This document shows positions 9,776-56,954 of a stretch of 64,000 nt of DNA, one piece after another; the stretch's first letter is position 1; the number at the start of each line of letters is the position of its first letter. Under the pieces are notes generated by a model, which was given only the letters and a program-made list of their open reading frames with translations, made no database searches and had not been told where the DNA came from. The translations under genes were made by a program, and so were the position numbers. Origin of the DNA: Actinomycetota bacterium (GTDB lineage Bacteria; Actinomycetota; UBA4738; HRBIN12); the NCBI GenBank assembly GCA_035640355.1, contig DASQWI010000011.1, forward strand, positions 124,001 to 188,000, written 5' to 3'.

Positions 9776-10114
9776 ATGCAGGCGTTCGCGGCGACCTGGG
9801 GATCTGACGGCGTCCTGTATCTCGAAGGCGAGTTCGATCTGGAAGCGGAGGAGGCGGCTGTGGAGGCCCTCCGCGGTCGCCCCTACGACGAGAACGACGT
9901 TGTCATCGACGTATCACGCCTGACGTTCATGGACAGCACCGGGATCCGGGTCCTCCAGACGCTCGTCACGGGGCCTGTGGCCGCCCGCGTCGTCCTGCGA
10001 TCGCCCAGCCGAGGCGTCCAGAAGGTCCTCGAGGTCGTGGGCTTCACGAAGCGGCCGCCGATCGCCGTCGGCGAAGGCGATCCCGCTTCTCATGAAGATT
10101 TTTTCATCTTCTGA
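9776..10114 (+). CDS. STAS-domain anti-sigma factor antagonist
   Basis: This 112-residue single STAS domain is of the RsbV/SpoIIAA type. The phosphorylation-site loop is intact in 'TFMDSTGIRVLQTL', with Ser in the expected place. Unphosphorylated forms bind anti-sigma factors and free the sigma factor. It begins six bases after the hydantoinase gene and is followed 54 bases later by a degenerate RsbW-like gene, so the pair may act together. The last eight residues (SHEDFFIF) form an unusual acidic-aromatic tail. Confidence 0.85.
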   Translation: MQAFAATWGSDGVLYLEGEFDLEAEEAAVEALRGRPYDENDVVIDVSRLTFMDSTGIRVLQTLVTGPVAARVVLRSPSRGVQKVLEVVGFTKRPPIAVGEGDPASHEDFFIF

Positions 10115-10168: not shown

Positions 10169-10543
10169 GTGCGTACGAGAGCGGTTCCTGCCGATTCGAC
10201 GGCGCCCCGGCAGGCGCGCCGCTTCGTCGCGGACGCCATCCCGAGCGACCTGACCATGGTCGCGCAGCTGCTCGTCTCGGAGGTCGTGTCGAGCTGCATC
10301 CGGCACGAGCACGCCGACGACGCCGTCATCGAGATCGCCGTTCAGGACGTCAACGGATCGGTCCGCGTCGACGTGGCGCTGCGGGGCATCGTGCATTCGG
10401 TGCAAGTCGACGAGACCGTTCTGGAGGAGACCGGCATCGGTCTCGAGATCATGAACGCGCTCGCCTATCGCTGGGGTGTGGAGCGAGATCCGAGCGAATG
10501 GAGAGGGTGGTTCGAGCTCCGCGCCGAGTTCCCGTATGGCTGA
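10169..10543 (+). CDS. RsbW-like ATPase-fold protein lacking ATP-binding residues
   Basis: This 124-residue protein aligns by eye with HATPase_c_2 anti-sigma kinases. The N-box equivalent is 'LLVSEVVSSCIRH', where the asparagine that binds magnesium is Ser42. The DxGxG box is replaced by 'LRGIV' (71-75). The later 'GIGLEIMNALAYRWGVE' segment is kept, so the fold seems present but ATP binding is doubtful. It could be an anti-sigma protein or a pseudo-kinase partner of the adjacent STAS protein. The ORF start is GTG at 10169. Confidence 0.7.
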   Translation: MRTRAVPADSTAPRQARRFVADAIPSDLTMVAQLLVSEVVSSCIRHEHADDAVIEIAVQDVNGSVRVDVALRGIVHSVQVDETVLEETGIGLEIMNALAYRWGVERDPSEWRGWFELRAEFPYG

Positions 10544-10549
10544 GCGCGC

Positions 10550-10768
10550 TCAGCGCGTGGGCGCGCCTTCGTCCTCCGACTCCTCAGCGTCCGGAGTCGG
10601 AAGGTCGTCGTCGAGTGGCTCGTTCGCCTGGATCGGTGAACCCGCCTCGATCAGCCCGGCCTCGCGGTCGCTCTTGCGCTGAGCGCGGGCCACCCGCCGC
10701 TCCTCGCGGGCGGCGGCCTTCCTCTGCTTGACGTTCTGTCGCTGGCGTTTTCCGAAGGTCTCAGGCAT
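10550..10768 (-). CDS. Small highly charged conserved protein
   Basis: This 72-residue protein has a very basic N-terminal half ('MPETFGKRQRQNVKQRKAA', then a run of E/R) and an acidic C-terminal tail. The basic part should be helical. It resembles short actinobacterial hypothetical proteins of unknown role. ATG at 10768 is preferred over a longer frame that has no homologous look. It converges on the previous gene; their stops lie within a TGAGCGCGCTCA palindrome. A nucleic-acid-binding role is possible only from charge. Confidence 0.55.
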   Translation of the reverse strand: MPETFGKRQRQNVKQRKAAAREERRVARAQRKSDREAGLIEAGSPIQANEPLDDDLPTPDAEESEDEGAPTR

Positions 10769-10854
10769 CGCAATTAAGCCTACGGGACGAACGGGGATCT
10801 GGCTTGCCTCAGCTCTTTGCGGGGGCCGCACCAACGCTCGCTTCGCTCGCTGTG

Positions 10855-11889
10855 CTACCCCCCCGCGCCCCCCGCGAACTCGGCCCGAACGCCGAGCAGG
10901 CGAACCGGCCGGTCGAGCTCGAACTTCGTCAGCGCCGCCATCGCGGCCGCCCGGACGGCGTCGGCGTCTGAGGTGGGCTCGAGCAGCGCGGCACCGTGGG
11001 TCCTCGTGAAGAACGGCGCGAACCGAACCTTCACGACCACCCTGGCAACAGGACGGCCGTCTCGGCGCAGGTCCTCCATCAGCTCCGAAACGAGCTCGCC
11101 GAGGCGTTCCCGGATCTCATCCTTATCCGTGACGTTCTCCTGATACGTCCGCTCGTGGCCGTGGCCCCGCGCCACGTAGGGCTCGTCCGAGACGCGGCGC
11201 GTTGACTCGCCCGCGGCGAGCGAGCGAAGCCACGGTCCCGTGTTCGGCCCGAACCGCCAAGCGAGTCTCTCGTCGTCCGCGTCGGCAAGCTCCCGGACGG
11301 TTCGAAGGCCGAGCTCGGACAGCTTGTCGGCAGTCTTCTTCCCGATGCCCCAGAGCTCGCGCGTCGAGCGGCGGCCCATGACGTCGAACCACTCCTCGCG
11401 CGTGAGCCGGTACACCCCTTTCGGCTTGGCGAACCCGCTCGCGAGCTTCGCCCGCAGTCTGTTGTCGCCGATGCCGATGGAGCACCACAGCCGAGTTCGC
11501 TCGAGGACGGCCTGCTGGATCCGTCGGGCGAACGATTCGGGGTCGTCGGTATCGACCGCGAGAAACGCCTCATCCCAGCCGGCCTCCTCGACGACAGCCG
11601 GGAACGACCTGAGCGTGTCCATGACGGTCCTCGACGCCGCGTGGTAGGCATCCGCGTCGACGGGGAGGAACACCGCGTCGGGCGCTCGCTTGTACGCGGT
11701 TCGAAGCGGCATCGCGCTCGTGATGCCGAACGCGCGGGCCGCGTAGTTGGCAGTCGAGACGACGCCGCGTTTGCTCGGATCGCCGTCGCCGCCGACGACG
11801 ATGGGGCGGCCCGCGAGCTCCGGTCGTCGGAGCATCTCCACCGCCGCGATGAACTGATCGAGGTCCATGTGAAGGACCCACCCGGTCAT
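10855..11889 (-). CDS. dinB: Y-family DNA polymerase, DinB2-like
   Basis: This 344-residue translesion polymerase has its metal ligands in 'HMDLDQFIAAVE' (Asp9) and 'GWDEAFL' (Asp106, Glu107). The 'GWDEAFL' form instead of 'SIDEA' places it near mycobacterial DinB2. The steric-gate position, normally Phe or Tyr, is Ile14. A helix-hairpin-helix ('LWGIGKKTADKLSEL') and little-finger region follow. No beta-clamp motif is obvious at the short C-terminus. The ATG at 11889 begins MTGWVLHMDL; the long open frame upstream overlaps the histone-like gene and is not coding. Confidence 0.85.
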   Translation of the reverse strand: MTGWVLHMDLDQFIAAVEMLRRPELAGRPIVVGGDGDPSKRGVVSTANYAARAFGITSAMPLRTAYKRAPDAVFLPVDADAYHAASRTVMDTLRSFPAVVEEAGWDEAFLAVDTDDPESFARRIQQAVLERTRLWCSIGIGDNRLRAKLASGFAKPKGVYRLTREEWFDVMGRRSTRELWGIGKKTADKLSELGLRTVRELADADDERLAWRFGPNTGPWLRSLAAGESTRRVSDEPYVARGHGHERTYQENVTDKDEIRERLGELVSELMEDLRRDGRPVARVVVKVRFAPFFTRTHGAALLEPTSDADAVRAAAMAALTKFELDRPVRLLGVRAEFAGGAGG

Positions 11890-11932
11890 CAGTGCGATGG
11901 GTTCGCGGCGCCGTGCCGCAGCTCGAGGGAGG

Positions 11933-12409
11933 TTAGGAGCTGCTGCTCGGGCGCTTGGCGGTCGACTTCTTCGTGGTCGAGCGCTTCGCCGTCGGCTTCT
12001 TCGTCGTCGAGCGCTTTGGCGCGCTGGTCTTCTTGCTCGACGTGGTGCTCGACGCTCGCGCCGGTGACGACGTCTTCGCGGTGGAGCCGCGTCCAGTGCG
12101 GGATGCCGTGCGCTTCGCGGCCGACGCGACGCGATCGGCCATCTTGGGCGCGTTGTCCTTGATGGCCTTTCCGATCTGTGGAGCGCGCCTGGCCACCTGA
12201 TCACCCGCCGCCCGGATGGCTTTGCCGACACGCCCGGGGGTGCGCGACGCAATCTTGCGGGCCGTCTCCGGCGCCTTGTCCCGAACGGTCCTGGCGATCT
12301 TCGGAGCTCGATCCGCGACGGCCTTGCCGACCGCAGGGGCCTTGTTGGCGATGCCGGTCACCAGATCCCCGATGCGGTCTGTTGGTCGTTTCGACTTGTT
12401 GTTCGCCAT
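11933..12409 (-). CDS. Histone H1-like basic protein
   Basis: This 158-residue protein opens with MANNKSKRPTDR. Residues about 10-100 hold repeated amphipathic segments of the form 'xxAPxxxKxxxDxAPK'. The C-terminal 50 residues are almost only Lys, Arg, Ser, Thr, Ala and Pro ('KRSTTKKPTAKRSTTKKSTA'). Such tails bind DNA non-specifically, as in bacterial H1-like proteins. It lies 43 bases upstream of the DinB2-like gene on the same strand and could be co-transcribed with it. A longer start at 12427 is possible. Confidence 0.7.
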   Translation of the reverse strand: MANNKSKRPTDRIGDLVTGIANKAPAVGKAVADRAPKIARTVRDKAPETARKIASRTPGRVGKAIRAAGDQVARRAPQIGKAIKDNAPKMADRVASAAKRTASRTGRGSTAKTSSPARASSTTSSKKTSAPKRSTTKKPTAKRSTTKKSTAKRPSSSS

Positions 12410-12493
12410 GTCGGCAGGGTACGTCATACGAGGACGCCCTCGCATCCCTGGACGGACACGGACGTCACACGGCAGCGATGATGCCTGGTGCCC

Positions 12494-12718
12494 CTACGCA
12501 GCGCTCCTGACGACGACTGGCTCTTCGGGGATCGCCGTCCACGGGACCCCATCGAAGGTGGTCACGTCGTCGGCGGGAACCAGAACGCGGCCGGGGCCTT
12601 GCAGCTCCACGATCGCGCCGTCGGCCTTCGCCGCTGTTCGGCCACATGGGCACGCGGTGCGCCCGTCGGCGAGCTCTGTGATCTCGCCGCAGGCGAAACA
12701 CTTCAGGAGTGTCGTCAT
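12494..12718 (-). CDS. Small zinc-ribbon-like protein
   Basis: This 74-residue protein has an N-terminal 'LKCFACGEITELADGRTACPCG' type motif giving C-x2-C and C-x-C pairs that could hold one zinc. The rest is beta-like. The ATG at 12718 is preceded by a strong AGGAGGG, supporting a real gene. Function unknown. Confidence 0.6.
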   Translation of the reverse strand: MTTLLKCFACGEITELADGRTACPCGRTAAKADGAIVELQGPGRVLVPADDVTTFDGVPWTAIPEEPVVVRSAA

Positions 12719-13023
12719 GTCCCTGCCCTCCTACCCGTTGGCCGCTCCGGTGGAACATTGGATCGACGGTATCCGGACGTCGCGCGGGCGACGACGCCCG
12801 GGTTCTCCTTCCGACGGCGTTGCCCCGACGCCGGGCCCTGGTGGTCGGGACTTCGGCGAGGTCCCCCGCCCTCGCCTCGCGCCGCCGATTCCGCTGTTCG
12901 ACGACGCACTTGTACCCCCCTGTTCGATCAGGGCAAACGGACCGCCCGGCACGGAGCGACCGCGGACGGTGTGCGGTGCAGGTGCGCTGCCCTGAACCAG
13001 GCAACCTGCAGTCGAAAAGCGAG
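12719..13023. other. Intergenic stretch without a convincing gene
   Basis: All six frames here give arginine/proline-rich translations with no ribosome binding site or family look. Apart from the Shine-Dalgarno of the minus-strand zinc-ribbon gene at its left edge, I see nothing I can name. Confidence 0.5.
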
Positions 13024-13051
13024 GAGCCCCGGCGCCGAGGCGCCGAGGCTC
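13024..13051 (-). terminator. Minus-strand intrinsic terminator
   Basis: GAGCC (13024-13028) and GGCTC (13047-13051) enclose a further GGCGCC pairing. On the minus strand the hairpin is followed by CTCGCTTTTCG. It lies downstream of the 36-residue membrane peptide gene and would end that transcript. Confidence 0.55.
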
Positions 13052-13060
13052 CACAGTCGC

Positions 13061-13128
13061 GGAGGCCGGTCCAGACGCAGGCGGTGGAGGGGCCACCGAC
13101 TTTTGGGCAGGGGGGCGGACCGGCCTCC
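13061..13128. repeat. Long-range 12-bp inverted repeat with an inner hairpin
   Basis: GGAGGCCGGTCC (13061-13072) is matched exactly by GGACCGGCCTCC (13117-13128). Inside are GGTGG (13084-13088) and CCACC (13093-13097), which can form a second stem. It sits between the microprotein stop and the terminator, so it would be in the 3' untranslated region of that transcript. It could be an RNA structure or a DNA site. Confidence 0.5.
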
Positions 13129-13142
13129 CCGTTCGGGTCGAT

Positions 13143-13253
13143 CTACGCCGTGTGGCCGCTCCTCGCTGCCGCTCGATGCGCGAGCAGCGCCACGACGAGG
13201 CGGGCGAGGGCACCAACGACGAGACCGGCGATCAGCCACACAAAAACGGCCAC
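13143..13253 (-). CDS. 36-residue single-span membrane peptide
   Basis: Starting at GTG 13253, the peptide MAVFVWLIAGLVVGALARLV... has one membrane segment followed by a short basic tail ending RSGHTA. A purine-rich GGGAAGGGGAAGGAG ends about nine bases upstream, a good ribosome binding site. The 'WLIAGLVVGALA' pattern recalls GlsB/YeaQ/YmgE stress membrane proteins, but it is less than half their length. It lies downstream of the sigma-factor operon on the same strand. Confidence 0.55.
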   Translation of the reverse strand: MAVFVWLIAGLVVGALARLVVALLAHRAAARSGHTA

Positions 13254-13359
13254 GCCCGGAAACTCCTTCCCCTTCCCAGCCCGGAGATCCAGGCTGGCGT
13301 ACCCCCATCAGGGCGGGCCAAACCAAAACACGAGCGATGCCCGCCGTCGGCTGGTTCCC

Positions 13360-13587
13360 TCAGGCGAGGAGCTTGTTCGTGCGGAACCGCCGCACGTTCA
13401 GCAGGTACGGGGTGGGCTGCGTGTGCTCCCAGCAGAGATCCCCCGTGTTGTAGACGGACAGCACCGTCAGGCACGACCCCTCAGCGCATACGCGTCCCAA
13501 GCGCCCACGTCGAGGTGCCTTGCTGGTGCCGCCGGGGAGCTTGCCGCGCAGCCAGAGCCGCGCATTGAGATCGGCGGCTTCACCCAT
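13360..13587 (-). CDS. Small Cys/His protein, possible zinc finger
   Basis: This 75-residue protein has the motif C-x4-C-x12-C-x2-H in 'RVCAEGSCLTVLSVYNTGDL' followed by CWEH. The 'TVLSxYNxGDxC' core recurs in small actinobacterial proteins that I recognise only as a pattern. The motif could bind one zinc. The gene follows the sigma factor by about 100 bases on the same strand and may be part of its operon or regulon. The longer frame upstream was rejected because it overlaps the sigma gene. Confidence 0.6.
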   Translation of the reverse strand: MGEAADLNARLWLRGKLPGGTSKAPRRGRLGRVCAEGSCLTVLSVYNTGDLCWEHTQPTPYLLNVRRFRTNKLLA

Positions 13588-13688
13588 GATGGGCGACGAC
13601 GTACCCGGGGATCCGGGAGGCGAAACCGAACGCGCGAACACTTTCTTCGAATCCCGGTGCCGGGATGATTCCGGCTGATCGGCTTGGG

Positions 13689-14417
13689 CTAGGTTTCCAC
13701 GCGGCGTAACGACCGAAGCGTTTTGGACAGCAGCCGCGAGACGTGCATCTGGCTGATCCCGAGCTCCTGCGCGATCTCGCTCTGCGTGCGTTCCTCGAAG
13801 AAGCGCAGGTACAGGATGCGGCGTTCTCGCTCCGGCAGTCGCCGGATCAGCGGGCCCACGCTCTGCCAGCTCTCCAGACTCTCGAACCCATCGTCCTTCG
13901 CGGCCAGCGTATCTATGGGCGAGAAGTCGTCCTCGAACCCGGTCGGCGCGTCGAGCGAGTCGGCCGTGTACGCCCTCGACGCGTCGAGCGCCTCGATGAC
14001 GTCTTCCTCCGACGCGCCGACCCGCTGCGCGATCTCTCGGATGGTCGGCGACCGCCCCAACTCCTGGGTCAGCGAAGCCATGACGCGCGTAACCCGGACG
14101 GCAAGCTCCTGGATGGGACGTGGGACGCGAACGGCCCACCCCTTGTCGCGGAGGTGACGTTTCAGCTCGCCGATGATCGTGATCGTCGCGAACGTCGAGA
14201 ACTTCACCTCGCGTTCCGGGTCGAGACGGTCGATCGCCTTGAGCAGCGCGAGCGTCGCCACCTGTTCGAGATCCTCGAGCGTCTCGCCGCGCCCGGTGAA
14301 CTTGCGTGCGAGATACCGCGCGAGCGGCCGGTGTCGGACCAGGAGCTCCTCGCGCGCCTTCTGATCGGGGAGCATCCCGAACAGCTGCGTGTCGCCGAGC
14401 TCGGAAACCGGCGTCAT
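13689..14417 (-). CDS. SigB/SigF-family RNA polymerase sigma factor
   Basis: This 242-residue group 3 sigma factor has region 2 'GRGETLEDLEQVATLALLKA' and 'VKFSTFATITIIGELKRHLR' and region 4 'RTQSEIAQELGISQMHVSRL'. Such factors direct general-stress genes and are held by RsbW-type anti-sigma proteins. The ATG at 14417 overlaps the stop of the upstream anti-sigma gene (ATGA), fixing the start and showing coupling. It is a paralogue of the factor at 53549-54358, with the same DKGWA(V/I)RVPR segment. Confidence 0.92.
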   Translation of the reverse strand: MTPVSELGDTQLFGMLPDQKAREELLVRHRPLARYLARKFTGRGETLEDLEQVATLALLKAIDRLDPEREVKFSTFATITIIGELKRHLRDKGWAVRVPRPIQELAVRVTRVMASLTQELGRSPTIREIAQRVGASEEDVIEALDASRAYTADSLDAPTGFEDDFSPIDTLAAKDDGFESLESWQSVGPLIRRLPERERRILYLRFFEERTQSEIAQELGISQMHVSRLLSKTLRSLRRVET

Positions 14418-14812
14418 TGCGTGTTCGTGCTTCCCACGGCTCGTTTCGCCACCCGAACCGCGGGCACTCCGTCCATTCGTTCCCAGGCCACGTTGTCGGT
14501 GAGCCCCTGCAAGACCTGCGACGCGAGCGAATGCTCGACGCCGTCCGGCGGCCACTCCGGCACGTTGGCGTTCGTGCTGCATGTCGCCTGAACCCCGACG
14601 GGGGTCGGCTCCAGCCGAACCGTCAGCTCGGTTCCGCGCGCGATCAGCAACTGAGCACAGGCCTCGTCGACCGCGATGCGCAGGTCCTCGATCGCATCGA
14701 TGGTCAGGTCGTTCCGTGCGGCTACGCTTCCCACCACCGTTCGGACGACGTGCAGGAACTCCGCCCGCGCGGGGACCGTGATCAGAACGGTGTCCTGCGG
14801 ATGCGCAAGCAC
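14414..14812 (-). CDS. RsbW-like anti-sigma factor with degenerate ATP site
   Basis: This 132-residue protein is coupled to the sigma gene by a four-base overlap, which is strong evidence for an anti-sigma role. The N-box equivalent 'LRIAVDEACAQLL' has Gln54 where kinases have Asn. No DxGxG is seen; the region reads 'ATCSTNANVPEWP'. It aligns closely with the protein at 53136 ('VPARAEF', 'VDEACA', 'WPP(D/S)G'). It probably holds the sigma factor without acting as an ATP-dependent kinase, though that is inference. The GTG at 14812 has no ribosome binding site. Confidence 0.8.
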   Translation of the reverse strand: MLAHPQDTVLITVPARAEFLHVVRTVVGSVAARNDLTIDAIEDLRIAVDEACAQLLIARGTELTVRLEPTPVGVQATCSTNANVPEWPPDGVEHSLASQVLQGLTDNVAWERMDGVPAVRVAKRAVGSTNTQ

Positions 14813-14817
14813 GGGTG

Positions 14818-14823
14818 CCTATA
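14818..14823 (-). promoter_or_regulatory. Candidate -10 element of the anti-sigma/sigma operon
   Basis: On the minus strand the sequence is CAGTATAGGC, with TATAGG ending five bases before the GTG at 14812. The message would be leaderless. The same AGTATAGG string lies directly upstream of the paralogous gene at 53136. Confidence 0.3.
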
Positions 14824-14902
14824 CTGACATCGCGCCGATCGCGACGTCCTGACGAGAGGATCTCGAGTAGCAGGTACGTCGGCACGACAAAGGGGCCCGA
14901 AG

Positions 14903-15004
14903 GTCGAACTCCGACTCTATTTGCGGACCGAAAGCGACTGGACGGTGCTCGAGGTGGGCGGCGAGCTGGACCCCCGCGGGGCCATCACCGAGGCAGTTGG
15001 CTGA
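14903..15004 (+). pseudogene. Remnant of a STAS-domain gene (N-terminal third only)
   Basis: The frame reads VELRLYLRTESDWTVLEVGG then ELDPRGAITEAVG and stop. It lines up with the N-terminus of the intact STAS protein at 52721-53056 (MDLQLENRTAGDWTVIRVNG). The start position holds GTC, not GTG, after a purine-rich AAAGGGG. The phosphosite and the rest of the domain are missing. Its TGA overlaps the ATG of the next gene as TGATG. It is most likely a decayed antagonist gene, possibly kept as a short leader. Confidence 0.55.
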
Positions 15005-15381
15005 TGGGCGACGATCTGTTCGAGCTCCAGCTGCCGTCGCTGGCGGAGCATCTGGCCACTGCACGGTCGTTCGCGGCCGCCGTCGCCAGGCACTATGACG
15101 TTGCGGGCGAGGCGGTGGAAGACCTCAAGATCGCCATCTCCGAGGCGTGCGTCGATGCGCTCGTCGCCGGTTCCGGCATCCGGGTGAGGGCGGAGGACGT
15201 CGGGCGGGCCGTCACGTTCGAGGTCGACTCTCCCGACGCGCCGGAGACCCCCGAACAGGAGGCGCTCGACGAGTTGGGTGCGCCGGCCAGGCTCGAGCTC
15301 ATCCGGTCGCTGTTCGCCGACGCCACGATCGAGACGGACCACGGCAGGCGCGCCATCCGATTTTCGCTGCCAATCGACTAA
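15004..15381 (+). CDS. RsbW-like ATPase-fold protein lacking ATP-binding residues
   Basis: This 125-residue protein has the N-box equivalent 'LKIAISEACVDALV', with Asp51 in place of Asn. The expected DxGxG region reads 'EVDSPDAPETPE'. The C-terminal 'RLELIRSLFADATIE' matches the G2-side helix of anti-sigma factors. It probably binds a sigma factor or STAS protein. The ATG at 15004 shares a base with the stop of the STAS remnant, which supports this start. No sigma gene is directly downstream on this strand. Confidence 0.7.
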   Translation: MGDDLFELQLPSLAEHLATARSFAAAVARHYDVAGEAVEDLKIAISEACVDALVAGSGIRVRAEDVGRAVTFEVDSPDAPETPEQEALDELGAPARLELIRSLFADATIETDHGRRAIRFSLPID

Positions 15382-15529: not shown

Positions 15530-15721
15530 ATGGGCGAGAAGCTCGACGAGACGAAGGGCCGGGCGAAGGAAGCCGCCGGCGACCTGACCGGTAACAAGGA
15601 CCTGGAACGCGAGGGTCGGATGGATCAGGCCGGCGCGAAGGTCAAGAAGAACGCCGGTGCCGCCGTCGACAAGACGAAGGAAGCGGTCGACAACGTGATG
15701 GATCGCGACGAGGACCGCTAG
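15530..15721 (+). CDS. CsbD-family stress protein
   Basis: This 63-residue hydrophilic helical protein begins 'MGEKLDETKGRAKEAAGDLT', the signature of CsbD, a general-stress protein controlled by SigB in Bacillus. Its biochemical role is unknown. AAGGAGG lies five bases before the ATG at 15530. It ends one base before the convergent DUF6328-like gene. Its position among sigma-regulator genes fits a stress regulon. Confidence 0.9.
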   Translation: MGEKLDETKGRAKEAAGDLTGNKDLEREGRMDQAGAKVKKNAGAAVDKTKEAVDNVMDRDEDR

Positions 15722-16295: not shown

Positions 16296-16445
16296 ATGAG
16301 CTACCAGGAGCACCACAGCCACGACGCTCCGCCCGAGGGCGGCGGCTACGTCGGCTACGCTGCGATCAAGTACACGGCGATCGTAGTCATCGTGCTCGCC
16401 ATCCTGGCGTTCGTCGCCTGGTACATCCTGCCGCGCGTCGGGTAA
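16296..16445 (+). CDS. 49-residue single-span membrane protein
   Basis: The ORF reads MSYQEHHSHDAPPEGGGYVG, then a membrane segment (YTAIVVIVLAILAFVAWYIL) and a short PRVG end. ACAGGAGG lies five bases before the ATG. The N-terminal His-rich part would face one side of the membrane. Function unknown; it sits with other small stress-type membrane proteins. Confidence 0.65.
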   Translation: MSYQEHHSHDAPPEGGGYVGYAAIKYTAIVVIVLAILAFVAWYILPRVG

Positions 16446-16808: not shown

Positions 16809-19800
16809 ATGCCAACCATGGGTCCGCCCGGCCGCACTCGAACCCCGGCCGACCTGCTCATCGAGCGACACCTCCCATCGGAGCCGGCGACGGTGGGGGT
16901 AGCTCGTCGAGCGATCGACGCCATCGGCGCGCGCCTGCGGCCCTCGGCGCTCGAGGGCGCGAGGCTGCTCGTGAGCGAACTGACCTCAAATGCCGTCCGC
17001 CACGGTCCTCACGACGTCGGCGCCGACCTCGCGCTTCGGATCGGATTGCGAGAGGACGTCCTCCGCGTCGAGGTGGCCGACGAGGGCGTCGGGTTCGACC
17101 CGCCGGCGCCGACCGGTCTGCTCGATGCCGGAGGGTGGGGTCTCGTCCTCGTCGATCGCGTCGCCGACCGTTGGGGCGTCGAGCCCGGGGCGCCGACGAC
17201 CGTGTGGTTCGAGATCGACCGTGCGGCGCGCGACGGCGCGCGTTCGTTGTGGCCGGAGACGCTCGATCCACTGCTGCTGGACGTCCTGGGGTCCGCCATC
17301 GTCGCGGCCGACACGAACGGGGTCGTGACCCGGTGGAACCGGCGTGCCGAGCAGATGCTCGGGATCGACGAAGCGAAGACGATCGGCCGGTCGATCGGGG
17401 ATGTCCTGTTCGGTTCACGGAACGACGAGACCGCCGAGACGCTCGTGAAGTGCATCCGCGATGGCGAGGCGTGGGAGACGGAGTGGCAGATTCCGCGCGG
17501 CGCCCGGTTACGGCTCTCGATCACGCCCGTGCACGACGAGCACGGAGAGCTGCTCGGGACGATCGGCGTGCTCGTCGACGTCTCCGAACGCAGGACGATC
17601 GAAGCCGCACTTGGAGAGAGCGAGCGGCGGCGCGGCGAGGCGGAACGAGGTCGCGTGGTGTTGTACGCCATCGCCCGCGCGCTGTCGACGGCGTCGACGC
17701 TCGAGGAGGCCACACCGCAGCTGATCGCGGCCATCGGCGAGGCCCTCGGATGGGAGGTCGGCGGGATGTGGCGCGTCGACCAGGATGCCGGGGTGCTGCT
17801 GTTCGTGGGGGGCTGGAGCGCAACACCGGCCACAGGTCCACGGTTCCTGCGCAAGAGCGCGAGCTTTCGCCTCCCGAAAGGCACCGGACTTCCCGGACGC
17901 GTGTGGGAGCAACGCCGGCCGGCATGGATCCCCGACGTTGCGACGGATACGAACTTCCCTCGATCCGCCGACGGACTCGAAGCCGGATTGCACGCGGCAT
18001 TCGCGTTCCCGGTGACGCTCGCCGGTGAGGTTCTCGGGGTCGTCGAGTTCTTCAGTCGAAGCATCCGGGAGCCCGACGAGCCGCTCCTCAGCCTCATGGC
18101 CGCGATCGGCGCGCAGCTCGGCCAGTTCGTCGAGCGTCAGCGGACCGAGAGCGAGCTCGCCGAGAGTGAGGCGCGCAAGACAGCCGTGTTCGAGTCCGCG
18201 CTCGAGGCCATCTTCACGATGGGCGAGGACGGCCGGATCGTCGAGATGAACGGGACGGCTGCCCAGATGTTCGGGTATGCGCGGGAAGACGTGATAGGTC
18301 GGGAGCTCGTCGCGCTGATCATCCCGCCGTCGCTCCGCAGCCGGCATCGGCAGGGCCTCGAGCGGTATCGACGGACGCGCAAGGGCCGGATCTTCGGGCG
18401 ACGCCTCGAGCTCACTGGGATGCGGGCCGACGGCACCGAGTTCCCCATCGAGCTCACCGTGACGGAGGTGGACCTCCCGAGCTCTGAACCGGCGCTGTTC
18501 ACCGGATACATCCGCGACATCACCGACCGGCGTCGCGCACAGGAATTGCAAGCGGCGATGATGGAGAGTGAACGTGCTGCCCGCGAGCAGGTGGAGAGGG
18601 CGCACGAGCGCCTCGCGTTCCTCGCCGAGGCCAGCATGTTGCTCTCCGCGTCGCTCGATCCACGGAAGACGCTCGCGAAGATCGCGCCGCTCGTCGTGCC
18701 GAGGCTTGCCGACTGGTGCAGCATCCACGTGCTCGAGTCGGACGGGAGGATCCAGACCGTGGCGGTCGAGCACTCCGATCCCGACAAGCTGGCGGTCGCT
18801 CGCGAGTATCAGGAACGGTTTCCGTCGCGGCCCGAGGACGCGGCCGGCGTTGGTCTGGCCATCAGGACCCGGGAGCCGCAGCTGTTTCCCGAGATGACCG
18901 ACGAGATGTTGGAGCAGATCCCCGAGGAGCGGCGTCGCGCCGTGCGAGAGCTGGGCATCAGCTCGGCCATGGTGGTTCCGTTGCAGGCCCGGGGACGGTC
19001 CCTCGGAGCGATCACGTTCGCGTCGTCCACCCCGGGGCGTGCGTTCGGGAAGGACGATCTGGAGCTCGCCCAGGACCTGGCGCGTCGGGCGGCGCTCGCG
19101 TTCGACAACGCGCGGCTGTACGAGGAGCGCAGTCACATCGCGCGGACCCTGCAGCGCTCGCTGCTCCCGCGTCGCCTCCCCGAGCTGCCCGGCATCGAGG
19201 TCGCGTCGTTCTATCAGCCCGCGGGCGCGATGCGAACGGAGGTGGGCGGCGACTTCTACGACGTTTTCCCGGTCGGCGAGGGCGCATGGGGTGTCGTCGT
19301 CGGAGACGTGTGCGGCAAGGGTGTCGAGGCGGCAGCGCTCACCGGCATGGCTCGGCACACGATCCGCGCGTCGGCGCTCCGGGAACACTCACCATGTGTC
19401 GCGCTCGAGGACCTGAACGACGTGATGCTGCGAGAGGATGGCGAGAGGTTTTGCACCGTCGCGCTCGCTCGGGTCGAGGTCAACGAGCGCGACGTCGCCC
19501 TCACCGTCGCATGCGGCGGCCATCCGTCCCCGTTCGTCTTGCGGCGGCGGGGAAAGCTCGAGACCGTCGGCGCGCCGGGAACGCTCCTCGGTGTGTTCGA
19601 CAAGATCGCGATCGAAGATCGGTCGGCCAGGTTGAAGGCCGGCGACCTCGCCGTCTTCTACACCGACGGTCTGATCGACGCGCGTCATCCCACGCCGCTC
19701 GACGAGGCCGCGCTGCGTGCCCTGGTGCAGTCTTCGGCGGGCAAGACGGCGCAGGAGACGGTCGACGCGATCGCCGACGCGGTCGCCGACCCGTCGGGCG

Positions 19801-19853
19801 AGTCGCCGGACGACATCTGCATCGTTGCCTTGCGGGTGACACCCTCGACGTAG
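16809..19853 (+). CDS. Multidomain HATPase-PAS-GAF-PAS-GAF-SpoIIE phosphatase (partner-switching hub)
   Basis: This is a 1014-residue cytosolic regulator. Residues about 25-140 form an RsbW-type ATPase domain with an intact N-box ('LLVSELTSNAVRHG', Asn61) and G1 box ('VADEGVGFD', Asp91, Gly93, Gly95). Then come PAS (about 150-265), GAF (285-430), PAS (445-575), a short coiled coil, GAF (610-770) and a PP2C-like SpoIIE domain from about 780 ('LQRSLLP', 'EVGGDFYDVFPV', 'GDVCGKGVEAA'). It should sense signals and dephosphorylate STAS proteins, and may also phosphorylate them. No membrane span. ATG at 16809; a second in-frame ATG follows three codons later. Confidence 0.9.
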   Translation: MPTMGPPGRTRTPADLLIERHLPSEPATVGVARRAIDAIGARLRPSALEGARLLVSELTSNAVRHGPHDVGADLALRIGLREDVLRVEVADEGVGFDPPAPTGLLDAGGWGLVLVDRVADRWGVEPGAPTTVWFEIDRAARDGARSLWPETLDPLLLDVLGSAIVAADTNGVVTRWNRRAEQMLGIDEAKTIGRSIGDVLFGSRNDETAETLVKCIRDGEAWETEWQIPRGARLRLSITPVHDEHGELLGTIGVLVDVSERRTIEAALGESERRRGEAERGRVVLYAIARALSTASTLEEATPQLIAAIGEALGWEVGGMWRVDQDAGVLLFVGGWSATPATGPRFLRKSASFRLPKGTGLPGRVWEQRRPAWIPDVATDTNFPRSADGLEAGLHAAFAFPVTLAGEVLGVVEFFSRSIREPDEPLLSLMAAIGAQLGQFVERQRTESELAESEARKTAVFESALEAIFTMGEDGRIVEMNGTAAQMFGYAREDVIGRELVALIIPPSLRSRHRQGLERYRRTRKGRIFGRRLELTGMRADGTEFPIELTVTEVDLPSSEPALFTGYIRDITDRRRAQELQAAMMESERAAREQVERAHERLAFLAEASMLLSASLDPRKTLAKIAPLVVPRLADWCSIHVLESDGRIQTVAVEHSDPDKLAVAREYQERFPSRPEDAAGVGLAIRTREPQLFPEMTDEMLEQIPEERRRAVRELGISSAMVVPLQARGRSLGAITFASSTPGRAFGKDDLELAQDLARRAALAFDNARLYEERSHIARTLQRSLLPRRLPELPGIEVASFYQPAGAMRTEVGGDFYDVFPVGEGAWGVVVGDVCGKGVEAAALTGMARHTIRASALREHSPCVALEDLNDVMLREDGERFCTVALARVEVNERDVALTVACGGHPSPFVLRRRGKLETVGAPGTLLGVFDKIAIEDRSARLKAGDLAVFYTDGLIDARHPTPLDEAALRALVQSSAGKTAQETVDAIADAVADPSGESPDDICIVALRVTPST

Positions 19854-20817: not shown

Positions 20818-20908
20818 GCCGAACGCGAGGTTCCTAACAGACGCGCACGGTCGCGGTCGGCAAGCTGGATGTGCGCGAAGCGCGCGCGACTCGCGGGAGG
20901 GATGATTC

Positions 20909-21229
20909 GTGCTCACGGTCGACGAGGGGGACGACGGGAAGACGCTCGTCCTGCAAGGCGAGATCGACATGGCGAACGTCGAGGATCTCGTCAATGCCGC
21001 GCTTTCGCGGCCTGAGAGGGGGCGCCTGCGATTGCACATGGAGCGCGTGACGTTCATCGACAGCACCGGGATCCGCGGGCTGCTCCGCATCGCCGAGGCC
21101 TATGGCGGCGAGCTGGAGGTCGTGGCACCACACCCCACCGTCCGGAAGGTGCTCCGGGTGCTAGGTCTCGACTCGACGTCACCGCTCCGCGTCGTCGACG
21201 ACCCGGATGTCGACGCCCGTAGGTCCTGA
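20909..21229 (+). CDS. STAS-domain anti-sigma factor antagonist
   Basis: This 106-residue RsbV-like protein has the phosphosite 'VTFIDSTGIRGLLRI' intact. It should bind and sequester an anti-sigma factor when unphosphorylated. GTG at 20909 follows CGGGAGGG at suitable spacing. Its 3' end overlaps the next gene by 23 bases if that gene starts at 21207. No partner anti-sigma gene lies directly beside it. Confidence 0.88.
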   Translation: MLTVDEGDDGKTLVLQGEIDMANVEDLVNAALSRPERGRLRLHMERVTFIDSTGIRGLLRIAEAYGGELEVVAPHPTVRKVLRVLGLDSTSPLRVVDDPDVDARRS

Positions 21230-51507: not shown

Positions 51508-51630
51508 GCCTATGGGAGTACCCAGCGGTGCGTTGAGCCAACCCGAGGGTTTTCCCGTGCGCCGCGGCGGGGTACGGCGTCTGTGCGAGCGGCCCGGCAC
51601 AGGGCCGAGTGAGCACGAAGGGGAGGCTCC

Positions 51631-52611
51631 GTGGTCGATTTCGGTTTCACGCTCTCCGCCGAAGAACAGCAGCCCAGCGAGCTCGTTCGGCTCGCTGGTG
51701 AAGCCGAGCGCGCGGGGTTCTCGTTCGCTACGATCTCGGACCACTTCCACCCGTGGACGTCGACGCAGGGAAACTCTCCATTCGTGTGGTCGGTTCTCGG
51801 CGGGATCGCGTCGGCGACCAAGCGGATCCGCGTCGGCACGGCCGTCACGTGTCCGCTGATCAGGATGCACCCCGCGATCGTTGCGCATGCCGCAGCGACG
51901 GTGGCGGCGATGATGCCGGGCCGGTTCTTCCTCGGGCTTGGAACGGGCGAGAACCTGAACGAGCACGTTACGGGAGCTCGCTGGCCCTCCGCGAGCGAGC
52001 GTCGCGACATGCTCGAGGAGGCCGTTGAGGTGATCCGCGAGCTGTGGGGCGGCGACCTGGTCGACCACCGCAGTCGGTGGTACCGGGTCGTCGATGCGCA
52101 GCTGTTCACGAAGCCCGAGCAACCGCCGCCGATCTACGTCGCCGCGGGTGGGCCGAAGGCCGCCGAGTTCGCCGCTCGTCACGCGGATGGACTCATTGCC
52201 ACGTCCCCCGACCGCGAGCTGCTAGACGCGTTCGAGAATTCAGGCGGGCAGGGCAAGCCGCGATACGCGCAGATCACGGTGTGCTTCGACCGCGACGAAC
52301 GGCAGGCAGTGGAGACGGCGATGAAGTGGTGGCCGACGGCCGCCCTCGAGGGCGAGCTCATGCAGGAGCTCCCGTTGCCGCGTCACTTCGAGCAGGCGGC
52401 GTCGATCGTGGCGGAAGACCAGCTGACGCAGGCGATCGTGTGCGGACCAGATCCAGAACGCCACGTGGAGAAGCTTGGCCAGTACGTCGATGCAGGGTTC
52501 GACCACGTGTTCATCCATCAGGTTGGACCCGATCAGTCGAGCGGGCTCGCCTTCTACGCTCGGGAGATCCTGCCGCGCTTCGACGAGACGCCGTCGCGGA
52601 AGGCCGGATAG
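51631..52611 (+). CDS. LLM-class F420-dependent oxidoreductase
   Basis: This 326-residue luciferase-like monooxygenase fold is of the F420 group related to F420-dependent glucose-6-phosphate dehydrogenase: 'AGFSFATISDHFHPWTSTQG', 'PGRFFLGLGTGENLNEHV', 'LWGGDLVDHRSRWYRV', and 'PIYVAAGGPKAAEFAARHAD'. The substrate is unknown. GTG 51631 follows GGGGAGG at good spacing. It supports F420 use by the host, as does the DDN-family gene at 41151. Confidence 0.85.
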   Translation: MVDFGFTLSAEEQQPSELVRLAGEAERAGFSFATISDHFHPWTSTQGNSPFVWSVLGGIASATKRIRVGTAVTCPLIRMHPAIVAHAAATVAAMMPGRFFLGLGTGENLNEHVTGARWPSASERRDMLEEAVEVIRELWGGDLVDHRSRWYRVVDAQLFTKPEQPPPIYVAAGGPKAAEFAARHADGLIATSPDRELLDAFENSGGQGKPRYAQITVCFDRDERQAVETAMKWWPTAALEGELMQELPLPRHFEQAASIVAEDQLTQAIVCGPDPERHVEKLGQYVDAGFDHVFIHQVGPDQSSGLAFYAREILPRFDETPSRKAG

Positions 52612-52720
52612 TTCGCGCGTTTGCGCGCATTGGGCGGGGGTACTCCTGCTGCTACGGCGGTTTCGTCCGGGTTGTGCGATTAGGGCCGGGGGACGTCGCT
52701 CGTTGCCCGTTCGAGAGGTG

Positions 52721-53056
52721 TCAGTCGCTGGGAAGGTCGTCCGGGGAAGAGACGATGTCGAACACGCGATCCAACCCAGTGAGCGCGAAGACCTTCATCG
52801 GTGAGCCCGATACACCGACGAGAACGAGGCGTCCGTCCCGTTCGCGGACGCGTTTCAGGCATGTCACGAGCGTGCCGAGGCTGCTGGAATCCATGAACCC
52901 GACGCCCGAGAGATCGAGGGCAATGCGAACAGGAGGATCGTCGACGAGCGCGAGGACATGTTCGCGGAGCTGGGGTGACGTGTGGAGGTCGAGCTCGCCG
53001 TTCACACGGATCACGGTCCAGTCGCCCGCGGTCCGGTTCTCGAGCTGTAGGTCCAT
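52721..53056 (-). CDS. STAS-domain anti-sigma factor antagonist
   Basis: This 111-residue RsbV-like protein opens MDLQLENRTAGDWTVIRVNG. The phosphosite is 'GVGFMDSSSLGTLVTC', with serines in the key positions. It is divergent from the anti-sigma/sigma pair at 53136-54358 and is its likely antagonist. Its N-terminus is the template that identifies the STAS remnant at 14903. Confidence 0.9.
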   Translation of the reverse strand: MDLQLENRTAGDWTVIRVNGELDLHTSPQLREHVLALVDDPPVRIALDLSGVGFMDSSSLGTLVTCLKRVRERDGRLVLVGVSGSPMKVFALTGLDRVFDIVSSPDDLPSD

Positions 53057-53135
53057 ACGTCCCTCCGTTGTCGCCGTTCAGCCCGCGCCGCAACGCTATC
53101 CGCATGCGCCGTGGGAGCTGGAGGGGCAAGTATAG

Positions 53136-53552
53136 GTGGTCAGGTCCCTCACCTCGGTGGGCTCTGAGTCCGTTCGGCTGTCCGTGCCGGCACGCGCCGA
53201 GTTCGTCCATGTCCTTCGTTCGGTGACGGCGGCCGTGGCGAGCCGTGTCCCGTTGTCCCTCGACGACGTCGACGATCTGCGGCTCGCCGTCGACGAGGCA
53301 TGCGCGCGCCTAGTCTCGCTCCCGTCCGACCCGACGTCGTTCCGGCTGGACCTCCGAAGCCTTCCCGACCGATTCGAGGTCGTCGTCGCCGTCGACGCCG
53401 CGACGCCAGCGTGGCCGCCGTCGGGGTTCGAGGACACGCTCGCGTGGCGCGTCCTCGGAGGCCTCGCCGAGAGCGTCCGATTCGAGCTGTGGAACGGTGC
53501 GCCCGCGGTCCGGATCGTCAAGCGCTCGATCGTCGGACGCAATGGGCGATGA
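53136..53552 (+). CDS. RsbW-like anti-sigma factor with degenerate ATP site
   Basis: This 138-residue protein is ATGA-coupled to the sigma gene that follows. The N-box equivalent 'LRLAVDEACARLVS' has Arg where kinases have Asn. The G1 region reads 'VAVDAATPAWPPSG', with no DxGxG. It is a clear paralogue of the protein at 14414. It should bind the sigma factor, but phosphorylation of STAS proteins by it looks impossible from these residues. GTG 53136 follows GGAGGGG; GTG 53157 would match the paralogue better. Confidence 0.8.
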   Translation: MVRSLTSVGSESVRLSVPARAEFVHVLRSVTAAVASRVPLSLDDVDDLRLAVDEACARLVSLPSDPTSFRLDLRSLPDRFEVVVAVDAATPAWPPSGFEDTLAWRVLGGLAESVRFELWNGAPAVRIVKRSIVGRNGR

Positions 53553-54358
53553 GCCCATCGCGACCACGCATCCGACACGACGCGCAGGAGCGGGAGCTCT
53601 TCGCGCTTCGTCCCGATGCCGCCGCGCGCGAGGAGCTCGTCCGGAGGTTCCTGCCGCTCGCCGAATACCTGGCGCGCCGCTTCTCCGGGCGCGGTGAGTC
53701 GCATGACGACCTGTTCCAGGTGGCGAGCCTCGGTCTGCTGAACGCGATCGATCGGTTCGACACCGAGCGCGAGGTGCAGTTCACGACGTACGCGGCGGCG
53801 ACGATCGTCGGCGAGATCAAACGGCACTTCCGTGACAAGGGATGGGCCATTCGCGTCCCCCGGCGGCTCCAGGAGGTCGGTCTCCGGATGAACTCGGTCC
53901 TTCCCGAGTTGTCGCAGGAACTCGGCCGCGCACCCACGGTCGAAGAGCTCGCCGCGAAATCCGAAGCCACGCCCGAAGAGATCCTCGAGGCGATGGAGGC
54001 GAGTCAGGCGTACTCGACGAGCTCGCTCGAGGCGCCGGCGGGAGACGATGGTGCCGCTCCGATCGACGTTCTCGGCTCAGAGGACGAATCGATGACGCTC
54101 CTCGAGGAGTGGGCGACCGTCGCGCCCGCTGTTCGCCGGCTACCGAAACGGGAACGGACGGTCCTGTATCTCCGGTTCTTCAGAGGTCTCACTCAATCGG
54201 AGATCGCGCGCGACGTCGGCGTTTCGCAGATGCACGTCAGCCGTATCCTCGCGCAGACCCTGCGAACCCTCCGCGAGACAGTAGGGCCGGCAGATCTGCC
54301 GGCCGCCCTCGAAGACCTCTCGAACGAGGACGACGCGGCGTCGGCCGAAAGGGCCTAA
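53549..54358 (+). CDS. SigB/SigF-family RNA polymerase sigma factor
   Basis: This 269-residue group 3 sigma factor has 'GRGESHDDLFQVASLGLLNA' and 'VQFTTYAAATIVGEIKRHFR' (region 2), 'TQSEIARDVGVSQMHVSRIL' (region 4). A 30-residue acidic C-terminal extension ('ALEDLSNEDDAASAERA') is absent in the paralogue at 13689. The start overlaps the anti-sigma stop. It ends two bases before the convergent CBS gene. Confidence 0.93.
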   Translation: MSPSRPRIRHDAQERELFALRPDAAAREELVRRFLPLAEYLARRFSGRGESHDDLFQVASLGLLNAIDRFDTEREVQFTTYAAATIVGEIKRHFRDKGWAIRVPRRLQEVGLRMNSVLPELSQELGRAPTVEELAAKSEATPEEILEAMEASQAYSTSSLEAPAGDDGAAPIDVLGSEDESMTLLEEWATVAPAVRRLPKRERTVLYLRFFRGLTQSEIARDVGVSQMHVSRILAQTLRTLRETVGPADLPAALEDLSNEDDAASAERA

Positions 54359-54360
54359 CT

Positions 54361-54873
54361 TCAGGACGCCTCTCGGCGTTTGCGGGCGTCGTTGCGGCGA
54401 ACGCGTTCGGGCGTACCTCGCGCCGGTCCGCTCTGCGGCGCATCCGTGGTGTTCGGCGACTCCGAAACGTCGTGCAGTGCCTCGCCGACGGCGCGCTTCG
54501 ACGCGTCCGCCACCGCGATGTCGCCGAGGGCAAGGATCCCGACCAGCTTCCCTTCCTTGACGACGGGGAGCCGGCGGACCTTGTTCTCCGCCATCAGGTC
54601 GCGCGCGTCGCTGACGTTCGTGTCCGGCGTCGTGGTGATGACGTTCCTCGTCGCGACGTCGCCAAGCTTCATCTCGCGGGGGTCCTGTTGTTTGGCGATG
54701 ATTCGGAGGACGAGGTCTCGGTCGGTCACGAGGCCGACGAGTTTCCCATCCTCGTCCGCAAGTGGGATTACGCCCACGTCGTACTGCTCCATCAGACCGG
54801 CCGCGTCGGCAATGGTCCGGTCCGGGCTCAGTGTCTTGGGCGCCTCGGTCATGATGTGTCGAACAAGGATCAT
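54361..54873 (-). CDS. Two-CBS-domain protein with basic tail
   Basis: The protein has 170 residues. The CBS pair has 'HIMTEAPKTLSPDRTIADAA' and 'VATRNVITTTPDTNVSDARD', with 'GLVTDRDLVLRI' between. A 45-residue charged tail follows ('RGTPERVRRNDARKRREAS'). Such proteins sense adenine nucleotides. It converges on the sigma factor gene. A second CBS protein is at 24230. Confidence 0.88.
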   Translation of the reverse strand: MILVRHIMTEAPKTLSPDRTIADAAGLMEQYDVGVIPLADEDGKLVGLVTDRDLVLRIIAKQQDPREMKLGDVATRNVITTTPDTNVSDARDLMAENKVRRLPVVKEGKLVGILALGDIAVADASKRAVGEALHDVSESPNTTDAPQSGPARGTPERVRRNDARKRREAS

Positions 54874-54983
54874 GGCTCATCCCCCTTCGCTCACGGCGAG
54901 CAAGCCCGTGCCTTGTGCCTACCCCGAGCCGCTCGGCCGGAAACGACGCTTCGGACGGTTGTCGCGCCGGGTGCCCGGGAACG

Positions 54984-55229
54984 ATGTCGGCAGCCGAACA
55001 GCAGAACAGTAGAGGAGACCGGGACGTGTCGTCGAACGGCGTTGAGCGACTTCGTGAAAAGCGCGGCGATCAGGAGGTGACGTTCGCGGACGTAGCCGAC
55101 CACCTCGAGGATTTCGTGAACCGCCACCCCGAATCGCAGGAGACGATCGACAAGCTCGCCTCGTTCATCGCCGGGGTCGAGGACGTCGACCATCAACATC
55201 GAGAGGAGGGTTCGACACTCGATCGCTAG
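54984..55229 (+). CDS. Small hypothetical helical protein
   Basis: This 81-residue charged, helical protein has 'DQEVTFADVADHLEDFVNRH' as its core. No family recognised. The ATG at 54984 begins MSAAEQQNSRG; GGGA precedes it. It is divergent from the CBS gene and converges on the hemerythrin gene. Confidence 0.5.
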   Translation: MSAAEQQNSRGDRDVSSNGVERLREKRGDQEVTFADVADHLEDFVNRHPESQETIDKLASFIAGVEDVDHQHREEGSTLDR

Positions 55230-55256
55230 GCAAGGTCTCCTCGCGGATTCGCTGGG

Positions 55257-55700
55257 TCAGGCGGCGAGTCCGGCCCGTTTGCGAGCCTGCATCCGCTCGC
55301 CAAGCTCCTCGAGTGTGTCCTTGTCGAAGACCTGACGAGCCTGCTTGAACATCTCCCCTTCTTCTTCCTCGATGTGATGCTCCAGGTTCTCCTTCATCAC
55401 CGTGAACTTCGCGATCCACGTCTCGTCCTCGACGGGCGTCTGCTCAATCTCCGACATGATCATGTCGACGACACCGTGCTCCTCGTATGCCTCGAGCGCG
55501 ATCTCTCGCGTCTTCGCGTGCTCCTTTAGCGCGGGGTAGAAGATCTCCTCCTCGATGGCCTCGTGGATCGTGAGCTCCTGCTTGAGCCTCGCGAGCTCAC
55601 TCGTACGGGTCTTCACAGCTCGCTCCGTCGTGGACTCGATGTCCGACAGCAACTTCTCGACCTTCTCGTGGTCTTCTTTCAGGAGCTTCAGCGCGTCCAC
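55257..55700 (-). CDS. Hemerythrin HHE-domain protein
   Basis: This 147-residue four-helix bundle has the iron-binding pattern 'KEDHEKVEKLL', 'LTIHEAIEEEIFYP', 'EEHGVVDMI' and 'LEHHIEEEEGEMF'. It binds a di-iron centre and may sense or store oxygen, or respond to oxidative stress. GAAGGAGGG precedes the ATG at 55700. Confidence 0.9.
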   Translation of the reverse strand: MDALKLLKEDHEKVEKLLSDIESTTERAVKTRTSELARLKQELTIHEAIEEEIFYPALKEHAKTREIALEAYEEHGVVDMIMSEIEQTPVEDETWIAKFTVMKENLEHHIEEEEGEMFKQARQVFDKDTLEELGERMQARKRAGLAA

Positions 55701-55874
55701 GGTCCCTCCTTCGTTCGTGCCCGATACCCTTTTGCTCGGGGCGGCCGTGCGCGCTGTGTGGTTGGCGCACGATCAACCGCTGCGTGCGTACCCACACGTG
55801 CGCGCAGCTACGCCTGTTTGCGTGTTTGTCCGGGGCGATTTGAAGGGAACAGTCGCGCCGGAGGCGATTGAAAG

Positions 55875-56909
55875 ATGCCGCTCCGGAGGGCGACCATCGA
55901 CGGTCCGGCGATCTCGCGACGCCGGCGCGGGCGAGGGTTCTCGTACGTCGGCCCGTACGGGCCTGTGACCGACGCCGAGGCGCTCGAGCGCATCCGCGCC
56001 TTGGTCATCCCGCCCGCATGGACGGATGTGCGGATCAGCCCTGATCCGCTCGGGCACATCCAGGCCGTGGGGATGGATGCTGCCGGGCGGCGGCAGTACC
56101 TGTATCACGCTGATTGGCGCGTTCGCCGCGACGAAGAGAAGTTCGAGCGCATGGTCGAGTTCGCCCATACGCTCCCCATCCTGCGCGAGCGCGTCTCGGC
56201 AGACCTGTCGCTCCGAGGAGTTCCGAAGCCTCGCGCGTTGGCGTGCGCCGTTCGTCTGCTCGATCACGCGTTCTTCCGCGTGGGGTCCGAGGCCTACGCC
56301 CGTCAGAACGGCTCGTTCGGTCTGGCAACAGTCCGCAAGGAGCACGTCACCGTCCGCCGCGATCTCGTCGTTTTCGACTTCGTTGCGAAGAGCGGCAAGC
56401 GGCACGTGCAGGAGATCGCCGACGTTGACCTTCTCCCGGTTGTCCGAACCATGCGGCGGCGTCGCAACGGCGGCCACGAGCTGCTCGCGTACCGCGAAGG
56501 CGACCGCTGGCGCGACATCCGATCGAGCGACATCAACGAGTACATCCGCGATGCGGCGGGTGGCGACTTCTCCGCCAAAGACTTCCGCACGTGGCACGCG
56601 ACCGTGCTCGCGGCTGTGCACCTCGCGATCGGCCACGCCGAGTCGACATCGCTCACGTCGCGGCGGCGGGTCGTCTCGGGAGCCGTGCGTGAGGTGGCGG
56701 GATTCCTCGGCAACACGCCCGCCGTCGCTCGCGCCTCGTACATCGACCCGCGAGTGATCGCACGGTTCGAGGAGGGCGTCACGATCGGCGGGACACTCGC
56801 GGGACTCCAGACGGACGACCCGACCGACCCCGAGATCCGCGCGAGTGCGGAGGCGGCGGTCTTGGAGTTGCTCGAGGCCGACCCGTCAACGCACGCGCAG
56901 GCTGCGTGA
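55875..56909 (+). CDS. Bacterial DNA topoisomerase IB
   Basis: This 344-residue enzyme is of the small poxvirus/Deinococcus-like type IB class, which relaxes supercoils through a 3'-phosphotyrosine. The N-terminal 'GRGFSYVGPYGPVTDAEALE' is typical. The catalytic domain has 'GSFGLATVRKEHVTV', 'KDFRTWHATVLAA' and the active Tyr in 'VARASYIDPRVI'. Start ATG 55875; no strong ribosome binding site. It stands alone. Confidence 0.92.
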   Translation: MPLRRATIDGPAISRRRRGRGFSYVGPYGPVTDAEALERIRALVIPPAWTDVRISPDPLGHIQAVGMDAAGRRQYLYHADWRVRRDEEKFERMVEFAHTLPILRERVSADLSLRGVPKPRALACAVRLLDHAFFRVGSEAYARQNGSFGLATVRKEHVTVRRDLVVFDFVAKSGKRHVQEIADVDLLPVVRTMRRRRNGGHELLAYREGDRWRDIRSSDINEYIRDAAGGDFSAKDFRTWHATVLAAVHLAIGHAESTSLTSRRRVVSGAVREVAGFLGNTPAVARASYIDPRVIARFEEGVTIGGTLAGLQTDDPTDPEIRASAEAAVLELLEADPSTHAQAA

Positions 56910-56954
56910 CCGTTTGCCCCGCCGAGAGCCGGGGTACACGTCAGTTCCTACTGA

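Follow-up and report, generated by a model that had tools for sequence, protein, structure and literature searches.

Four RsbW-like proteins without the N-box asparagine

We analyzed a 64,000-nucleotide stretch (here called the window) from the genome of an uncultured actinobacterium (GenBank assembly GCA_035640355.1, contig DASQWI010000011.1, positions 124,001 to 188,000), in which four small open reading frames (ORFs) encode proteins that share the RsbW/SpoIIAB fold. Labeled by ORF coordinate, these are A (10169..10543, plus strand, 124 amino acids), B (14414..14812, minus strand, 132 amino acids), C (15004..15381, plus strand, 125 amino acids), and D (53136..53552, plus strand, 138 amino acids). 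The initial annotation had recognized all four by pattern and had proposed that each carries another residue in place of the N-box asparagine and lacks a DxGxG box. The ORFs were confirmed at the positions it gave, and the fold was supported by the scores of C and D against the Pfam profile HATPase_c_2 and by structural models of D and A. The HATPase_c_2 scores were 21.1 bits for A, 27.3 for B, 38.1 for C, and 39.2 for D; with a gathering cut-off of 27.4 bits, C and D lie above, B just under, and A below. None of the four proteins, which scored at most 41.9 bits, reached the cut-off of 155 for TIGR01924, the NCBIfam equivalog for classical RsbW.

A column-by-column alignment revealed that the position of the N-box asparagine is occupied by Ser42 in A, Gln54 in B, Asp51 in C, and Arg58 in D, as had been proposed. 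Asp51 of C aligns opposite the N-box asparagine of Bacillus subtilis RsbW, and C contains no asparagine residue anywhere. DxGxG was absent over the full length of all four sequences. Motif status throughout was taken from alignment columns in preference to regular-expression calls, which were used for the survey of nearby HATPase genes. None of the four proteins thus has the combination of N-box asparagine and DxGxG that marks classical RsbW and SpoIIAB. The loss is not complete in every case, however. B and C have neither a G1 nor a G2 box, but A, in which the G1 aspartate is gone, retains its G2 box (TGIGL) and so has not lost every ATP motif.

The four proteins had been interpreted as one family of paralogues sharing a single loss. 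Our phylogenetic tree, in which B and C are represented by 95% identical orthologues from a related genome (G001), does not support this interpretation, because it splits B/D, C, and A into three separate supported clades. Judged from the tree, the loss of the N-box asparagine in B and D is one ancient loss common to their whole clade, and C and A, former kinases from two different families, each lost this site independently.

B and D as probable UsfX/RsbW1-type anti-sigma factors

B and D each overlap, by the sequence ATGA, a gene encoding a SigB/SigF/SigG-family sigma factor (13689..14417, minus strand, coupled to B; 53549..54358, plus strand, coupled to D), in agreement with the coupling proposed earlier. 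The two sigma factors scored 268 and 277 bits, respectively, with TIGR02980, the SigB/SigF/SigG model, whose cut-off is 234 bits. In a phmmer search of the PDB, the best relatives of both B and D were the Mycobacterium tuberculosis UsfX chains of entries 8jzt and 8ih8 (for 8jzt, E = 8e-10 with B and 2e-10 with D). The AlphaFold2 model of D, with a predicted local distance difference test score (pLDDT) of 90, had 8jzt as its top PDB match in Foldseek (E = 1e-9); 8jzt is the complex of SigF with its anti-sigma factor UsfX, and 8ih8, the UsfX-RsfB complex, was ranked first together with it. The N-box of UsfX itself has an arginine (AVDEVCTRLI) in the same column as Arg58 of D. In a profile search Bacillus RsbW scored about equal to UsfX for B and D, and the assignment was decided by the tree, in which the orthologue of B, D, and UsfX form a clade with support of 100/98. 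B is under purifying selection, with a ratio of nonsynonymous to synonymous substitution rates (dN/dS) of 0.16 (NG86) between the genome studied here (G000) and G001; the value for sigma is 0.13. Decay of B as a pseudogene was rejected on this ratio.

Homologues were searched in sets of 61 and 297 genomes and in a series of named genomes. The UsfX type is spread throughout Actinomycetota, with at least 497 loci and representatives in 174 of 297 genomes. From 129 nonredundant related sequences, ∼109 are of the true UsfX type, and not one of these keeps the N-box asparagine; the column holds Met, Leu, Gln, Ile, Tyr, Arg, and other residues. Only two asparagine-bearing sequences were first classed with the UsfX type, and the tree places both in another clade. 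A sigma factor gene directly follows the UsfX-type gene at 28 of the 29 loci from genomes designated by handle and at 46 of 80 loci from named genomes, and the named loci without one belong mostly to Micromonosporaceae. The UsfX-type genes at these Micromonosporaceae loci (L135 to L142 and others) perhaps encode orphan anti-sigma factors or antagonists like RsbW3 of Mycobacterium smegmatis. On the evidence of clade, structural match, and gene coupling, B and D are probably anti-sigma factors of the UsfX/RsbW1 type.

C belongs to a clade of putative STAS-linked kinases

C is transcribed divergently from B. Its clade (support, 99/96) holds intact as well as degenerate members: all three of N, G1, and G2 are kept in 4 of the 16 C-type sequences of the tree (L116, L117, L119, and L130), and the set is lost in the remaining members, which include the orthologue of C (C and at least 11 others). 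In many genomes the C-type genes of relatives are divergent from UsfX-sigma pairs, usually beside a STAS gene and sometimes beside a PP2C gene. C shares the clade and the divergent position of the putative C-type kinases but not the N, G1, and G2 motifs of the intact members. With some relatives still intact, C has, by this comparison, lost these motifs later. In an approximately unbiased (AU) test of the C-type clade, a single loss was not rejected (P = 0.37), although the best tree points to more losses. We also observed an intermediate C-type protein (L120, 4910-5458, in G060), in which the N-box asparagine is replaced by Ser, G1 is half kept (DASYGF), and G2 is gone.

The dN/dS of C between G000 and G001 is 0.11 (NG86) or 0.035 (YN00), which indicates purifying selection. 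Decay of C as a pseudogene was largely refuted by these low values. The wider proposal that both A and C are decaying pseudogenes draws on their lost motifs and on the long branch of A, for which the genomes searched yielded no close orthologue; we regard it as highly improbable, given the selection on C, the persistence of degenerate C-type genes in several families, and the intact open frame and predicted fold of A. C is most likely retained under selection as a binding protein, either of STAS proteins or of B.

Binding of B would give C the role of M. smegmatis RsbW3, an antagonist that frees the sigma factor by pairing with the anti-sigma factor and whose gene also adjoins a STAS gene (PMC7693655). 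This role is possible, if somewhat unlikely. C and B are divergent neighbors and both are conserved, but RsbW3 is highly similar to RsbW1 by its authors' account (PMC7693655), whereas C lies outside the UsfX-type clade. STAS binding fits better than an RsbW3-like role because most C-type genes adjoin a STAS gene. C could also bind a sigma factor itself, as an additional anti-sigma factor devoid of kinase activity, which would be compatible with its fold, its conserved locus, and its position divergent from a sigma operon. We consider this unlikely, since C is not coupled to any sigma factor gene and its intact relatives resemble kinases.

A, the STAS proteins, and candidate kinases

The loss in A is a solitary one. 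A was placed within the canonical HATPase clade of the tree on a long branch, and ∼30 of its relatives retain the asparagine and nearly all a G1 aspartate, both of which are lost in A alone. Its AlphaFold2 model reached a pLDDT of 84 from only five aligned sequences and matched SpoIIAB in Foldseek (E = 6e-7). A is not coupled to a sigma factor gene; directly upstream of it stands a STAS gene (9776..10114, plus strand; STAS, 41.3 bits) whose product keeps the serine (FMDSTG), and A probably binds this neighbor.

A STAS anti-anti-sigma factor is likewise encoded divergently from D (52721..53056, minus strand; STAS, 81.8 bits; FMDSSSLG), and a third STAS protein lies at 20906..21226 (plus strand, stop-to-stop coordinates; FIDSTG). 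Each of these three STAS proteins of the window retains the phosphorylatable serine, and they are the presumed kinase substrates.

The intact HATPase domain nearest to C, 1.4 kb away, belongs to a 1,014-amino-acid protein (16809..19853, plus strand) with the architecture HATPase-PAS-GAF-PAS-GAF-SpoIIE(PP2C) and the motifs SELTSNAVRH, DEGVGF, and GWGL. Fused as it is to PP2C, this protein is the nearest candidate for both kinase and phosphatase. Further intact HATPase proteins are encoded beside STAS genes on contigs C11, C13, and C14 of the genome. An intact HATPase near a degenerate C-type gene was found in the window and in G001, G006, G007, G010, G018, and G021. As a general replacement for degenerate C-type proteins, a nearby intact HATPase was rejected, failing in the f41 and f45 genomes, G060, G019, G020, and G024.

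SigF-type promoter motifs and neighboring genes

The mycobacterial SigF consensus is GGWWT-N16-17-GGGTAY (PMC7693655). The window contains 13 copies of the motif GTTT-N14-18-GGGWA (between 3660 and 61473) compared with 0.9 expected in shuffled sequence, with a peak in spacing at 15 to 17. The narrower form GTTT-N14-17-GGGTA has 15 sites genome-wide, 9 of which are inside the window (binomial P = 8e-12), and a set of 16 related loci (301 kb) contains 28 copies of the motif and none of its reversed form. Three motifs (GTTT-N15-17-GGGTA) lie on the minus strand downstream of the B-coupled sigma gene, at 12913, 13300, and 13602 (12913..13626), and five surround the D locus (51549..56936) at 51549+, 52619+, 54920-, 55824+, and 56912+.

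Genes preceded by the motif encode a luciferase-like monooxygenase, a CBS protein, and topoisomerase IB, and a CsbD-like protein gene has the GTTC variant. Near the sigma loci we noted CsbD-like, CBS, hemerythrin, and topoisomerase IB genes (15530-15721, 54361-54873, 55257-55700, and 55875-56909), several of them just downstream of SigF-type motifs, as well as two small proteins without a Pfam match (12494-12718 and 16296-16445), each directly downstream of such a motif. The motifs support a SigF-type stress regulon, without indicating which sigma factor reads them, and their distribution suggests that the two sigma loci sit within an island of stress-regulon genes.

A proposed division of labor between sigma binder and kinase

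The protein that binds SigF in M. smegmatis is RsbW1, which did not phosphorylate RsfB in vitro; the kinase is a separate protein, RsbW2, which has N, G1, and G2 (PMC7693655). Translational coupling is also known for UshX and SigH of Streptomyces, where BldG sequesters UshX and is itself phosphorylated by several RsbW homologues (PMC8346170). The partner-switching scheme of the initial annotation, in which the sigma-binding protein is not the kinase, is therefore not new, because the split was demonstrated experimentally in M. smegmatis. For the window, the scheme is the best reading for B and D; C and A lack sigma coupling.

B and D resemble UsfX (Rv3287c, M. tuberculosis) and RsbW1 (MSMEG_1803, M. 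smegmatis) in fold, clade, position before a SigF-type sigma gene, and lack of the N-box asparagine. The difference is that two such pairs occur here in 64 kb, with a degenerate C-type gene divergent from one of them and a STAS gene from the other. RsbW2 (MSMEG_6129), a separate kinase beside a STAS gene, has the role that we infer for the intact relatives of C, a likeness of description and not of compared sequences; RsbW2 keeps the N, G1, and G2 that C has lost. With RsbW3 (MSMEG_1787) the likeness is to an RsbW-like protein that has no kinase activity and is encoded close to a STAS gene, whereas C and A belong to two further clades. Bacillus RsbW and SpoIIAB share the fold and the STAS/PP2C partner switching, but in them the sigma binder and the kinase are one protein with its ATP motifs kept.

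In the mechanism that we propose, B and D would each be made with their own SigB/SigF-type sigma factor and hold it inactive by direct binding, without a kinase role. Unphosphorylated STAS proteins, such as that at 52721 with its serine kept, would displace the sigma factor from the anti-sigma factor, and their phosphorylation state would be set by separate intact-HATPase proteins, for example by the HATPase-PP2C fusion at 16809. In C, the orthologue of a STAS-linked kinase would have degenerated and most likely been kept for binding; A, paired with a STAS gene, would be a solitary loss unrelated to the others. The observed basis consists of the missing motifs, the clades, the coupling and conserved order of the genes, the purifying selection acting on B and C, and the local SigF-type motifs, and we assign this explanation as a whole a probability of about 0.8; the partners, the direction of phosphorylation, and the loss of kinase activity are its predicted parts.

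Two points weigh against it. UsfX, which is without the same asparagine, was reportedly found to bind and hydrolyze nucleotide (Malik, 2008, as its cited title has it), so absence of the motif does not equal absence of ATP binding. In addition, the f41 and f45 genomes, which have degenerate C-type genes, hold no intact HATPase of this type within ∼9 kb, so replacement by a kinase-phosphatase encoded nearby does not hold generally. The first point would be explained if B and D, and perhaps C, used ATP at a noncanonical site as atypical kinases or ATPases instead of acting as pure binders. We find this improbable, as the N-box asparagine, G1, and G2 are all missing in B and D, the asparagine column varies freely across their clade, and the M. 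smegmatis counterpart RsbW1 does not phosphorylate RsfB.

Under the favored division between non-kinase anti-sigma factors and separate kinases, a further and rather speculative step is that both arms of the locus are kinase-dead: the anti-sigma factor would have lost activity long ago, and the adjacent kinase gene would have lost it in this lineage too, possibly in several independent events, and been kept as a binder, while the HATPase-PP2C fusion took over both phosphorylation and dephosphorylation of STAS proteins.

The novelty of these findings is modest: to the known scheme they add a broad distribution, a divergent locus that is conserved, and a kinase side whose catalytic residues have been lost. 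The mycobacterial division of labor, in which the sigma binder is apart from the kinase, would extend to an uncultured actinobacterial lineage, and the asparagine-less anti-sigma type is the rule across the phylum Actinomycetota. A conserved locus whose kinase-side gene appears to have turned into a pseudokinase would be a good place to study the switch from enzyme to binding protein.
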